A stretch of 64,000 bases of DNA from Halomarina ordinaria (GCF_030553305.1 NZ_JARRAH010000001.1:992001-1056000), one strand, 5' to 3'; numbered from the stretch's first letter, positions 22,394 through 26,913 are shown. Notes: generated by a model from the sequence alone, not told the origin. Numbers and translations are program-made.

Positions 22394-22960
22394 CTACGAC
22401 CCGCACTCGACCGTCAGTTCCCGCGTCGCGTCTATCTCCAGTCCGTCGCCCGCGGCGACGATGTCGACGGTCAGGTCGTACTCCCCCCGTTCGCCGCCGC
22501 AGACGACCGTCCCCTCGACGGGCACTCGTTCACCGGCGTCGAGGGTGTCCGGAGCCTGAAGCCCCTGGACGGTCGGTTCGTCGTCCCCGCCCCCTGCCAC
22601 GTCGACGGACACGTCGAGCGCGCCGGGCGCGTTGTTCGTGAGCGTGAGCAGGGTGGTCCGGTCGGCACCGGACGCGTCGCTCGCGTTCGAGGCGTTCCGA
22701 CCGGGAGCGTCACCTGAGTTCCCGGGCGCGTCGTCAGCGTTGCCGTTCTCCCCGCCGTCGTTCGAGTCGGAGTCGCCACCCCTGTCGGCTGGCGGCGCAC
22801 TGACGACCACCCCCTCGGTCTCGATGCCGAGGAGGGCGTCCTCGTCGTCGGCGACCTGGACCGAGACGCCCCGGTCGGCGGTCGTACTCGACATCGCCCC
22901 CGTCCCGGCCACGAGCGCGAGCGCCCCGAGTGCGAGCAGGACGAGACGTAAGCGACGCAT
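22394..22960 (-). CDS. Exported TasA/DUF1102-like protein with acidic low-complexity insert
   Basis: 188 residues from ATG 22960. Signal peptide RLVLLALGALALVAGTGAM, then TTADRGVSVQVADDEDALLGIE, the same layout as the DUF1102 protein at 23843 (GTGAF, then DRSISVNVAGDSSAYLGL). Residues about 58-95 are a Gly/Asn/Asp/Ser-rich linker with possible N-glycosylation sites (NASNAS). The rest is beta-rich (LLTLTNNAPGALDVSVDV), the kind of segment seen in TasA/camelysin-like fibre subunits. It is coupled (TGATG) to the DUF7344 gene. Function is inferred from layout only. Confidence 0.68.
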   Translation of the reverse strand: MRRLRLVLLALGALALVAGTGAMSSTTADRGVSVQVADDEDALLGIETEGVVVSAPPADRGGDSDSNDGGENGNADDAPGNSGDAPGRNASNASDASGADRTTLLTLTNNAPGALDVSVDVAGGGDDEPTVQGLQAPDTLDAGERVPVEGTVVCGGERGEYDLTVDIVAAGDGLEIDATRELTVECGS

Positions 22961-23544
22961 CAGCGCGCTCGCTCCGCCGGGTCGTCGGCCCCGAGGTCGA
23001 GGCGACGGGTGTAGTAGGTGTGGACGAGCGCCGAGACGAGTAGCGACGCGACGGCGAAGGCGAACCACGAGACGACCGGAAGCGCGCCGAACGGCGCGAC
23101 CCCAGCCGCGGTGCCGAGCAGCACGACCGCGTTGACCCCCGCCAGCCCCAGGTAGTACCGGCTCCACGGGACGTCCCGCCCGGGCACGACGTCGACGTAC
23201 ACCTCCAGGTCGCTCGCGGAGGGGGAGAGCGCCACCTCCCCGCGCCGCGCGTCGTACTCGACGAACCCGCAGTCGTCCATCTTCGGCAGGTGGAACTGGT
23301 GGAGCGCCGTCGAGACGCGGTTGCGCTCCGTCGCGGTGAGCGCCTCCGGCGGCTTGTCGTACTCCCGCGCGGTGACGTGGTCGGTCAGTTCCCGGATGTC
23401 CACCTCCTCGCCCGCCTGCTTCAGGTAGTGGTAGGCGTAGCGCCGCCGCCCGTTGCTCAACACCTCGAACACGTCGTCCTCCGAGAGCGATTCGCCCGAA
23501 TCGTCAGGCCCCGCGGAGCGAGTCGAGGAGAGCGACTCGCTCAT
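22960..23544 (-). CDS. DUF7344-type winged-helix protein with two C-terminal membrane helices
   Basis: 194 residues. About 20-110 form the HTH domain: VFEVLSNGRRRYAYHYLKQ, then LTATERNRVSTALHQFHLPKMDDCGFVEYD, as in DUF7344 regulators. Two hydrophobic segments (about 132-152 and 155-177) tether it to the membrane. Such membrane-bound HTH proteins often accompany exported-protein genes and may regulate them. It sits upstream of and overlaps the small exported protein gene by one base and is divergent from the DUF1102 gene. Target and signal unknown. Confidence 0.82.
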   Translation of the reverse strand: MSESLSSTRSAGPDDSGESLSEDDVFEVLSNGRRRYAYHYLKQAGEEVDIRELTDHVTAREYDKPPEALTATERNRVSTALHQFHLPKMDDCGFVEYDARRGEVALSPSASDLEVYVDVVPGRDVPWSRYYLGLAGVNAVVLLGTAAGVAPFGALPVVSWFAFAVASLLVSALVHTYYTRRLDLGADDPAERAR

Positions 23545-23842
23545 CGGCGACCCCCCGCCGTCACAGTCATGAACGACGGATATCGTCGAGTAGACGGACT
23601 TAATTATAGAGATAATTACAGCAGAGGTACAGTTTCACCGTCAATGGGTTGAAATTATTGTCGGACTTACTCGATTCGACGACGATTGCGGACCGAGGAC
23701 TGTTCTGCAAGCGGTCGTTTAATCGCAGACGGGGTGTGTTTTGTCCTCTCATGGCGGTCATTGGACGTCGCCGGGGTCTGTATACCTAATCCGGTGGGTG
23801 AGAGGGTGTGTGGTGGACGCGAGGGGCGTCCGATGACAGACT
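23545..23842. other. AT-rich divergent intergenic region of the surface-protein module
   Basis: About 300 bp with no credible gene. It contains TAATTATAGAGATAATTA (23601-23618), a perfect 7-4-7 palindrome that probably overlaps the minus-strand promoter of the DUF7344 gene, and CTGTATACC near 23777-23785 as a possible promoter for the DUF1102 gene. Confidence 0.55.
23601..23618. promoter_or_regulatory. Palindrome TAATTAT-N4-ATAATTA
   Basis: Perfect 7-4-7 inverted repeat 57-74 nt upstream of the DUF7344 gene start on the minus strand. Its AT content also makes it a possible TATA element; the symmetry suggests a dimeric regulator, perhaps the DUF7344 protein itself. Confidence 0.4.
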
Positions 23843-24466
23843 ATGCAACGGAGAAAATTCCTGATCGGTGCGGGTTCGCTCGCCGCTGCGGGGGCGGCTG
23901 CAATGGGTACGGGTGCGTTCACAACAGCACGAGTCGACCGTTCAATTAGCGTGAACGTCGCTGGTGATAGTTCAGCTTACCTTGGGTTGGATGCATCAAT
24001 TAGCGATTACGCTACCGAAAATGGTAACAAACTACAACTTGTATTTGATGGATCGAATGATCAGAATGGAGAGGGTCTGAATCCTGATTCAGATACAGCA
24101 TTCCACAACGTTTTTCGTATCCAAAACAACGGTACTAACACTATTCGAGTTACTCTACAAGATATCCCGGGAGACTCGCCGATGGTGTTTAAGTACAGCG
24201 AGGATACAGACGACACCACGAACTTAGGTGACCAGACATATTTCCCGAACTCACCACAACCCCTTGCAGATACCGGGTACGGTCCGAGCGGCAGTCCGAA
24301 CTCGGGATACCTTGACCTTGACCCTGGGAACGACGCATACGTCCACATAAGCTTCTTCCTCAGAGATGAAGGAGACGCTGCTGATGATGTGACGACGGAT
24401 ATTAGCGCGGTTCCGGACGAATTCGGAATCTACGCTGGTGCTGTTCCTGACACGGACGGACTGTAA
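23843..24466 (+). CDS. DUF1102 family exported protein, TasA/camelysin-like
   Basis: 207 residues. The N-terminus QRRKFLIGAGSLAAAGAAAM resembles a twin-arginine signal, followed by the GTGAFTTARVDRSISVNVAG start typical of DUF1102. The body is predicted beta, with VFRIQNNGTNTIRVTLQDI, the same arrangement as the NNG strand of TasA-family fibre proteins. Codon use is unlike its neighbours: two 60-base lines counted by eye (23941 and 24001) hold 27 and 22 G+C against 45 in the line at 22921. That suggests recent transfer or unusual selection. A SipW-like peptidase gene follows. Confidence 0.8.
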   Translation: MQRRKFLIGAGSLAAAGAAAMGTGAFTTARVDRSISVNVAGDSSAYLGLDASISDYATENGNKLQLVFDGSNDQNGEGLNPDSDTAFHNVFRIQNNGTNTIRVTLQDIPGDSPMVFKYSEDTDDTTNLGDQTYFPNSPQPLADTGYGPSGSPNSGYLDLDPGNDAYVHISFFLRDEGDAADDVTTDISAVPDEFGIYAGAVPDTDGL

Positions 24467-24491
24467 CCTATAACGCTGCGTGTTCGTTGTA

Positions 24492-24497
24492 TTTTTT
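24492..24497 (+). terminator. T-tract after the DUF1102 gene
   Basis: A run of six T within GTATTTTTTAC 26 nt after the stop codon. Archaeal intrinsic termination commonly uses short U-tracts without a strong hairpin. Confidence 0.4.
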
Positions 24498-24560
24498 ACA
24501 CATCTGTAATAAAGTTGACGACCAGTTCTTACGACCCCTATCCGGCGAACAATGATGTCA

Positions 24561-24613
24561 AAATATATACAAGAAAGAGAGTCTATCTTAAATCAAGGTA
24601 CGTCAATAGTACC
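24561..24613 (+). promoter_or_regulatory. Promoter region and GGTAC-N7-GTACC palindrome of the signal peptidase gene
   Basis: A TATA-like AAATATATAC (24561-24570) precedes a perfect 5-7-5 inverted repeat GGTAC-GTCAATA-GTACC at 24597-24613, 24 nt before the ATG at 24637. A related GGTATT...AATACC repeat precedes the DUF5305 gene. Confidence 0.4.
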
Positions 24614-24636
24614 AAACATACCTACAATCACGAATT

Positions 24637-25803
24637 ATGAACGTCCGTAGAACCCTCGGCCAATCGCTTACCCTCGTACTCATCGTCGTCGCCGCGCTCC
24701 TCCTTGCGGGACCGGCCCTCGGCCAACCGCTCCTCCTCAGCTACGTCGAAACCGGAAGCATGGAGCCGACGATGGAGCCCGGCGACGGGTTCGTCGCCGT
24801 CCCCACGGAACTCACCGGACCGGTCGAGCAGGGCGACGTGGTCACCTACGAGGCCGAGGAGATCGAGGGCGGCGGCCTGACCACCCACCGCGTCGTCGGC
24901 GAGACCGACCGAGGGTACACGACACAGGGCGACGCGAACCCGTTCACCGACCAGGACGACGCCGAACCCCCGGTGCAGGACGCTCAAATCGTCGCCAAAG
25001 CCCTCCAGGTGAACGGCGAGGTGGTCGTCATCCCCTACCTCGGGACCGCCGTGATGGGTTTCCAGGACCTCCTCGTCACGATGCAGACGACGCTCGCCTC
25101 CCTGCTGGGCACCCGGTCGCTGCTCGGCGCGCAGGGCCTCGGGTACCTCGTCTTCGCTCTCACGGCCGTCTACTACGTCGTCGACTGGTACAGAGAGGGC
25201 GAGACGAAGCGCCGCGAGCGGACGCGCGAGCGCGAGACGGGTGTCTCGACGCGCGTCGTTCTGGTGGGATTCGCCGCGGTGCTCGTCGTGGGCGCGACGG
25301 CGGCGATGGTCGGCCCCTCGGGGACCCAGGAGTTCGGCGTGGTGAGCGCCGAGTTCGACTCCGAGCGCCCGGACGTGATTCCGGCGGGCGAGTCGAAGAC
25401 CCAGCCCTACGCGGTGCCGAACGCCGGCCTCGTCCCCACCGACGTCTACCTCGAACCGGCGAGCGACGGGGTGCGCGTCGCGGACTCCGAGTTGCGGGTG
25501 GGCGGGGGCGAGACGGCGGAGACGGAGGTGACGCTCTCCGCTCCCCCCGAGACGGGCTACTACCGGCAGTACGTCGTCGAGTACCGCTACCTCGCGGTGC
25601 TGCCGGCGTCGGTGGTCGGGGGGCTGTACGCGGTCCACCCGTGGCTGCCCGTCGTCGTCATCGACGCGCTGCTCGCCGGCGGGTTCCTCGCGCTGACGCT
25701 CCCGTTCGTCGACGGCGGGCGGGTGCGGCGTCGGTCGCGGCCGACACGCGGGCGCTCGCTGGTCGGACGCCTCCTCGGGTCTTCCAGGCGCCGTGAGCGG
25801 TGA
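24637..25803 (+). CDS. SipW-like signal peptidase I (S26B) with C-terminal extension
   Basis: 388 residues. N-terminal helix (about 8-30), then catalytic SMEPTMEPGDGFVAVP with the nucleophile Ser near 46, and THRVVGETDRGYTTQGDANPFTDQDD with the His that replaces bacterial Lys in archaeal/ER-type enzymes. After another helix (about 165-185) comes a roughly 190-residue extension containing a beta-rich exposed part and further membrane helices near 205-225 and 330-352. Ordinary archaeal signal peptidases are near 200-250 residues. Placement between exported DUF1102-like proteins and DUF5305 parallels bacterial SipW beside TasA. Confidence 0.87.
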   Translation: MNVRRTLGQSLTLVLIVVAALLLAGPALGQPLLLSYVETGSMEPTMEPGDGFVAVPTELTGPVEQGDVVTYEAEEIEGGGLTTHRVVGETDRGYTTQGDANPFTDQDDAEPPVQDAQIVAKALQVNGEVVVIPYLGTAVMGFQDLLVTMQTTLASLLGTRSLLGAQGLGYLVFALTAVYYVVDWYREGETKRRERTRERETGVSTRVVLVGFAAVLVVGATAAMVGPSGTQEFGVVSAEFDSERPDVIPAGESKTQPYAVPNAGLVPTDVYLEPASDGVRVADSELRVGGGETAETEVTLSAPPETGYYRQYVVEYRYLAVLPASVVGGLYAVHPWLPVVVIDALLAGGFLALTLPFVDGGRVRRRSRPTRGRSLVGRLLGSSRRRER

Positions 25804-25810
25804 GTAATCG

Positions 25811-25834
25811 GGTATTAACTAACCGGACAATACC
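25811..25834. promoter_or_regulatory. Inverted repeat GGTATT-N12-AATACC before the DUF5305 gene
   Basis: Six-base arms in the 45-bp gap between the signal peptidase stop and the DUF5305 ATG. The repeat overlaps the likely promoter (GTATTAAC) and may be a regulator site, indicating separate control of this gene. Confidence 0.35.
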
Positions 25835-25848
25835 GAACGTACTGACAG

Positions 25849-26913
25849 ATGGGAGACTGGGAACTTCGCGCGCGCAGACTGGTCGGGGCGAACCTCGCGG
25901 TGGTCGTCGCCCTGCTGGTCGTGCTCGCGCTCCTTGGCGGGTGGCTCACGTACGACGCGCACGCCGGACCGGAGACCGAACAGCGAGAGGAGGTGGTCTC
26001 GTCGTGGGAGACGACCGCCGCCTTCGACCACGGGGCGACCGTCACCCGCGAGAACCCCGTCTACGACGTGGGGACGCGCCTCGACAACCGCTCGGTGTAC
26101 TTCACGAACGTCGCCCCGGTGATGAACGGGAGCTTCGACTACGGGTACACTGCGACCGGGGAGGGTGAGCTCGACGTCGACGCGGAGACGGAACTCGTGA
26201 TCCGGTCGGTGGAGTCGCCCGGCGAGGCCGACACGACGGTGTACTGGCAGCAGCGCCGCGACCGCACGTCGGCCAACGCGAGCGGCCTCGAACCGGGGGA
26301 GAGCGTCTCGGTCCCGTTCTCCGTCGACCTCGCGGCGGCGGCCAACGAGACGGCCGACATCGACGAGCAACTCGGCGGGTCGCCCGGCCAGTCGGAGGTC
26401 GTCGTCGAGGCGACCGTCACCCTCTCGGGCACCGTCGACGGCGAAGCCGTCGAACGGACGGAGCGGTACACCCTCCCGGTCGAACTGGGCGAGACGGCCG
26501 CCGTCGACGCGACCGGTCCGACGACCGAGCGCTACGAGCGGACCGAGACGGTGCGCGACCCCGTCGACTCCTCGCCGCTGCAGGCGGCCGGTGGGCCGTT
26601 GCTGTTGCTCGGGTCGGTGCTCGTCCTCGGCGGCGTCGGAGCGATGGCCTCGCGCGACGAACTGGGTCTCTCCTCGACCGAGCGCGCCTCCCTCGCCCAC
26701 CGGCGCGAGCGCGCCGAGTTCGACGACTGGATAACGCGCATCAGGTTGCCCGAGAGCGTCCTCGCGCGCGAGCGCGCCCACGCCGAGTCGCTCGCTGACC
26801 TCGTGGACTTCGCCATCGACACGGACAACGCCGTCGTCGAGTCGCCCGACGCGTCGGCGTACTACGTCGTCCACGACGACCTGCTGTACGTCTACGAACC
26901 GCCGGAACGGTGA
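25849..26913 (+). CDS. DUF5305 membrane protein
   Basis: 354 residues. An N-terminal helix (about 17-36) leads to a long extracellular beta-rich domain (DHGATVTRENPVYDVGTRLDNRSVYFTNVAP...) of about 210 residues with several N-x-S/T sites, then a second helix (about 245-265) and an acidic cytoplasmic tail of about 90 residues. DUF5305 proteins are common next to SipW-like peptidases in haloarchaea; function unknown, possibly an assembly or anchoring factor for the fibre-like proteins (inference). Confidence 0.82.
   Translation: MGDWELRARRLVGANLAVVVALLVVLALLGGWLTYDAHAGPETEQREEVVSSWETTAAFDHGATVTRENPVYDVGTRLDNRSVYFTNVAPVMNGSFDYGYTATGEGELDVDAETELVIRSVESPGEADTTVYWQQRRDRTSANASGLEPGESVSVPFSVDLAAAANETADIDEQLGGSPGQSEVVVEATVTLSGTVDGEAVERTERYTLPVELGETAAVDATGPTTERYERTETVRDPVDSSPLQAAGGPLLLLGSVLVLGGVGAMASRDELGLSSTERASLAHRRERAEFDDWITRIRLPESVLARERAHAESLADLVDFAIDTDNAVVESPDASAYYVVHDDLLYVYEPPER

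Follow-up and report, generated by a model that had tools for sequence, protein, structure and literature searches.

In this study, we analysed a 64,000-nucleotide stretch of DNA from Halomarina ordinaria (GCF_030553305.1 NZ_JARRAH010000001.1:992001-1056000; hereafter the window), focusing on five genes, termed A to E, at positions 22394-26913. We conclude that these genes very probably constitute a compact cluster for Tat-fimbriae (tafi; Tat, twin-arginine translocation) of this Halomarina-like haloarchaeon, proposed to build a thin surface fibre. The first-pass annotation of the window had interpreted the five genes, all of which were recovered as intact open reading frames, as a fibre module related to bacterial TasA with its own SipW-type peptidase, and had regarded this five-part combination as new. 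Its central idea is retained, since a fibre subunit, a minor subunit, a peptidase, a regulator-like helix-turn-helix (HTH) protein and a membrane protein are combined in a single conserved module, and the predicted fold of C resembles those of fibre subunits from archaea. The claim of novelty has to be given up, since the same parts occur in canonical tafi loci and at the locus of the Natrinema sp. J7-2 tafi pilin. Judged by its sequences, the cluster belongs to the tafi-type fimbriae in the broad sense, as represented by PDB entry 9P0A, and its combination of genes is already known.

The exported protein C and the solved Tafi pilus

Tat-fimbriae of haloarchaea were described by Galeva et al. 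(2025, iScience 28:111793), and we compared them with the window as far as they are covered by the citation in PMC12687288 and by the NCBIfam models TafA, TafC, TafE and TafF. Protein C matches chain 9p0a_C over its full length (2.6e-16 by phmmer, residues 1-199 of 207), and a profile built from 60 sequences of its family retrieves the same chain from the PDB at 2e-32. In the fold library this entry is titled 'Structure of Natrinema sp. J7-2 Tafi pilus'. A Tat-like signal on C, already noted in the first-pass annotation, is borne out by the motif MQRRKFLIG, of which R3, R4 and F6 are invariant in the 60 sequences, and C is most likely exported by the Tat pathway, as predicted from this signal.

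Several observations weigh against the assignment of C and its cluster to tafi. C stays below the NCBIfam cut-offs of both TafE (1e-13, 51.4 of 155 bits) and TafA (2.1e-9, 37.7 of 190 bits), A reaches only 60.7 of the 410 bits set for TafC, the strongest part of the match lying in its C-terminal half (residues 97-186), and a search of the window cluster for a separate TafF-type protein found none. The AlphaFold2 model of C is additionally of middling confidence (mean predicted local distance difference test score, pLDDT, 72.4; predicted template modelling score, pTM, 0.66), and it superposes poorly on 9P0A over the whole chain (16.9 Å by Foldseek; 4.1 Å over 121 residues by VIA). Since the solved J7-2 pilin itself fails the TafA and TafE cut-offs (52.8 and 77.3 bits), the low scores of C are weak counter-evidence, and tafi extend beyond these cut-offs. 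Applying the NCBIfam models strictly, we assign C on these scores to neither TafA nor TafE, two types that are not separable in this protein, nor A to TafC. The earlier label DUF1102 (PF06510) holds for part of the family, with 32 of 60 members matching at E<=0.1 (best 2.4e-8), but not for C itself, which reaches 16.9 bits against a gathering score of 22.2; consequently, a DUF1102 search of the organism's own genome gave no match.

The best fold match of the C model is again 9P0A (Foldseek 1.3e-4, prob 1.00; VIA Z 8.1). Second comes AbpA of the archaeal bundling pili of Pyrobaculum calidifontis (PDB 7UEG; Foldseek 3.5e-3, prob 0.77; VIA Z 6.9, 4.8 Å over 118 residues), a level which unrelated sandwiches also attain, and whose sequence match with C is undetectable by phmmer and by the 60-sequence profile. 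A further fibre subunit among the matches is the Sulfolobus thread (Z 6.3). With unrelated Ig-like and PapD-like domains at Z 5-7 and a model of no more than middling confidence, the fold ranking is supportive rather than decisive, and the case for C as a putative tafi-type pilin is carried by the sequence match, with the fold secondary.

The C gene differs in composition from its neighbours, with a GC content of 0.508 and a GC content at third codon positions (GC3) of 0.476 against about 0.71 and 0.87-0.94. Among the surveyed loci L111-L190, pilin-type genes likewise lie below the accompanying peptidase gene in GC (102 of 106, mean -0.11) and in GC3 (99 of 106, mean -0.21). These values might reflect a pilin gene that is often replaced, or else an unusual use of codons.

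The GTGA motif as predicted cleavage site

Both exported proteins carry a common stretch, AGTGAM-SSTTA-DRGVSV in A and MGTGAF-TTARV-DRSISV in C, as the first-pass annotation had observed. This likeness is not due to chance, since BLASTP gives E=0.002 for the pair and an alignment of C with 59 homologues shows invariant G24, A25 and R33 as well as F at position 26 in 57 of the 60 sequences. Chain 9p0a_C comprises 215 residues, of which 188 are modelled, ending at residue 215; the filament chain would therefore start at F28, directly after GTGA, a start which follows from these lengths and the phmmer numbering rather than from the coordinates. Given this start and the invariant G24 and A25, GTGA(F/M) is best read as a signal-peptide cleavage site, after which the N-terminal strand would follow. 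Cleavage is predicted at GTGA|F in C (residues 25/26) and at GTGA|M in A (residues 22/23).

Peptidase, membrane protein and accessory proteins

D scores above the cut-off of the archaeal signal peptidase I model TIGR02228 (1.5e-14, 54.2 bits against 51.85), its S26B-type residues Ser41, His84, Asp99 and Asp105 are the same in all 13 sequences compared, and its family profile matches human SEC11A (9.6e-7). The peptidase character proposed for D in the first-pass annotation thus stands, while its narrower attribution to SipW does not, with 36.8 bits against a cut-off of 190. The C-terminal extension, previously put at roughly 190 residues, comes nearer to 250, as the matches to the peptidase profiles reach no further than residue 128-139 in a protein of 388. 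It is strongly conserved and contains transmembrane stretches, a beta-rich segment and a motif close to YYRxYVVExRYLxVLP. D presumably cleaves both C and A.

Pfam confirms the earlier assignment of E to DUF5305 and of B to DUF7344. E shows a transmembrane helix (16-39), an external beta-sandwich (43-238), a second transmembrane helix (243-268) and a small internal domain (276-350). Its AlphaFold2 model (mean pLDDT 92.8) retrieves generic Ig-like sandwiches, among them transglutaminase, arrestin and Spo0M, at Z 6.5-8.8 with no family standing out. Single-sequence searches of the PDB gave no match for A, D or E, a scan of viral contigs gave no relatives of DUF5305 or of the peptidase, and none of the papers searched makes mention of DUF1102, DUF5305 or 9P0A. 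The constant co-occurrence of D and E together with their topology suggests a role of both proteins in assembly.

The N-terminus of A resembles TafE. Its signal is leucine-rich and without a consensus Tat motif, so that A, unlike C with its QRRKFLIG, looks Sec-exported. Canonical TafC bears a Tat-type signal (KKWTRRSALALIG), compared here for L032, L034, L035 and L036 by an automatic Tat labelling that is crude, whereas the minor subunits of the window and of several relatives are apparently exported by Sec; within the minor-subunit family, the export route seems to have switched between Sec and Tat, as far as the signals tell. B has two transmembrane stretches at its C-terminus and may regulate the cluster. 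An exported protein lies co-directionally behind the DUF7344 gene, as A does behind B, at 75 of 135 DUF7344 genes surveyed. In the whole genome there are 16 DUF7344 matches, and a second, short DUF7344 gene lies within the window at about 52.7 kb (G000 C1:1044692-1044931).

Conservation and lineages of the cluster

Among 97 relatives, DUF5305 was found in 67 and TafE-like proteins in 63; TafE exceeded its cut-off in six relatives. Since the iterated TafA/E, TafC and TafF profiles merged through their common signal and first strand, these types were counted as one GTGA superfamily. At 77 loci anchored on DUF5305, GTGA-type exported proteins are present in 67, the peptidase, counted with a strict motif filter, in 56 and DUF7344 in 52. 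A second collection, from named organisms, was recruited by the peptidase alone, the DUF5305 alignment being too variable for scanning genome contigs, and yielded 62 full-length loci, of which 60 contain DUF5305, 60 GTGA-type proteins, 57 DUF7344 and 55 all four families. DUF5305 directly follows the peptidase in 55 of them and DUF7344 is divergent in 56; per 15 kb, about 0.004 DUF5305 and 0.07 DUF7344 genes would be expected by chance. Such a neighbourhood survey had been named beforehand as a test of the proposed module, and the presence of DUF5305 at 60 of 62 peptidase loci upholds it. The layout seen in the window is the usual one, with the minor protein and DUF7344 diverging from the genes for pilin, peptidase and DUF5305, and the core of peptidase and DUF5305 proves to be widespread in haloarchaea and largely unstudied.

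A tree of 103 peptidases, largely sampled by similarity to D and rooted at the midpoint so that no direction of change is claimed, groups the window with two other genomes of the genus (support 100/99) within a set of 78 rows (99/98). The canonical tafi rows stand outside this set, united against all other labelled groups with support 100/99, and the J7-2-type group is likewise outside it. By this tree, the window belongs to neither the canonical-tafi nor the J7-2 lineage of peptidases but to a third, larger one. Three genomes contain a canonical cluster as well as one of the window lineage, namely G059 (L031, L060), G039 (L032, L077) and G045 (L033, L072), with L060, L077 and L072 all in the 78-row set and the L032 peptidase absent from the tree. 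The two cluster types are therefore likely to be separate systems in one cell, and one cell may bear two such fibres.

The peptidases of L098, L103 and L104 branch away from the rest of the tree. At these three loci and at L099, L102 and L110, several of them from the genus of the window, pilin, a shorter peptidase, a TafC-like protein and DUF5305 lie on one strand with no DUF7344 gene nearby.

Gene arrangement and genomic setting

The five genes are listed in Table 1. On the minus strand, B (194 aa) precedes A (188 aa), and the start codon of A shares one base with the stop of B, which suggests coupled translation of the two. C (207 aa), D (388 aa) and E (354 aa) follow on the plus strand, divergent from B and A.

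Table 1. Genes of the fimbria cluster, with coordinates counted from the first letter of the window
Gene	Product	Coordinates	Strand	Matches
A	Exported putative minor subunit, TafC-type	22394..22960	-	TafC 1.3e-16, TafE 5.7e-6
B	DUF7344 winged-helix-like protein, inferred local regulator	22960..23544	-	Pfam PF24035 2.3e-28
C	Predicted Tat-exported tafi-type pilin	23843..24466	+	PDB 9p0a_C, TafE, TafA
D	S26B signal peptidase with C-terminal extension	24637..25803	+	TIGR02228 54.2 bits
E	DUF5305 membrane protein, inferred assembly factor	25849..26913	+	Pfam PF17231 3e-52

The cluster is surrounded, between 19272 and 34167, by genes of sugar-acid catabolism, i.e. a PfkB kinase, an MR_MLE dehydratase, a DHDPS-family aldolase, a dehydrogenase, an HTH-phosphoribosyltransferase protein resembling GfcR, and an ABC transporter. 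On the dehydratase side, the window, L111 and L037 have the same flank, and on the aldolase side, the window and L037.

Discussion

Two known kinds of tafi locus can be set beside the window. In genome G155, which holds a 100% copy of the 9P0A pilin, this pilin lies beside a 392-aa signal peptidase, DUF5305 and DUF7344, with a 348-aa exported protein behind DUF7344; the window thus has the partner genes of a pilin whose filament structure is known. Window and J7-2 locus share full-length pilin homology, the GTGA|F site, a long peptidase, DUF5305, DUF7344 and the exported protein behind it, while the J7-2-type locus differs by an additional 385-aa exported protein with CARDB/Ig-like domains, a 902-aa DUF7289 protein and a peptidase of another clade. 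The canonical cluster that was examined combines TafF, TafE, TafA and TafC, all over their NCBIfam cut-offs, with DUF7344, a 380-aa signal peptidase and DUF5305, so that the five-part combination thought to be new is that of known tafi loci. It has in common with the window the Tat-type GTGA subunits, a TafC-like protein, DUF7344, the long signal peptidase and DUF5305; the window differs in its Taf scores below the cut-offs, in a pilin whose TafA or TafE type cannot be told apart and in its separate peptidase clade.

We propose a model in which C would fold in the cytoplasm and then be exported by Tat, while A would be exported probably by Sec. D would cut both proteins after GTGA, giving mature N-termini that begin with F in C and with M in A. 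Outside the membrane, C would polymerise into a thin fibre, most likely with the N-terminal strand of each subunit (about residues 26-41) inserted into its neighbour, as in TasA, whose donor strand is formed by residues 28-38 at the start of the mature protein (PMC9674648). Such donor-strand assembly of tafi is suggested by analogy. A would serve as minor tip, base or adapter subunit, the external beta-sandwich of E, held by its two membrane helices, would form a membrane-side assembly site together with the external part of D, and B would regulate the cluster.

It appears very improbable that the cluster is instead a true haloarchaeal TasA/SipW system, in which C would belong directly to the family of TasA biofilm fibres and be served by a dedicated SipW peptidase, even though the TasA-TapA-SipW locus of Bacillus also unites a fibre subunit, a minor subunit and a dedicated signal peptidase (PMC9674648), the donor strand of TasA is likewise N-terminal, a place compatible with the predicted mature start of C, D matches SipW at 2.9e-9 and the fold list of C contains AbpA in second place and the TasA fibre 8AUR at rank 22 (Foldseek E 0.2). 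D lies far under the SipW cut-off and over the general archaeal one, the 60-sequence profile of C retrieves from the PDB 9P0A and chance-level matches only, with no TasA chain up to E=10, and the tafi match is far stronger. The main subunit of the window additionally carries a Tat-type signal, and DUF5305 and DUF7344 are not among the tasA operon parts named in PMC9674648. The expected likeness of C to TasA is therefore absent in sequence and weak in fold, with AbpA closer, and on these comparisons we do not assign C and D to the TasA and SipW families.

The number of subunits could also point to the decay or silencing of a once larger tafi cluster, with loss of the TafA and TafF genes, since the canonical cluster has TafA, TafC, TafE and TafF and the window only two GTGA-type proteins. 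We give this explanation very little weight, because all five frames are intact, exactly two GTGA-type proteins are also present in 10 of 62 related loci, and two further genomes of the genus have clusters of these families with the same genes on either side. That C and A form a surface coat or stay soluble after export, without polymerising into a fibre, is hardly to be expected either, with C homologous over its full length to a solved filament subunit and the cluster conserved around that pilin.

Beyond a tafi-type fimbria of known composition, we tentatively consider a more far-reaching picture, although we regard it as rather doubtful. The window would represent a third, numerically dominant tafi-type lineage, which in some cells would add a fibre of its own to canonical tafi. 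In this lineage, the long signal peptidase and DUF5305 would act as a membrane assembly machine coupling pilin cleavage to strand exchange, and the pilin, with its low GC3, would often be replaced as a cassette, perhaps under pressure from viruses or partner recognition.

The tafi-type assignment now links a widespread haloarchaeal cluster, composed largely of domains of unknown function, to a fibre of solved structure. Its conserved core, consisting of the extended S26B peptidase and DUF5305, has to find a place in every explanation of how tafi assemble. If it is true that peptidase and DUF5305 form the assembly site, the cluster would show how an archaeal TasA/AbpA-like fibre polymerises without an outer-membrane usher.

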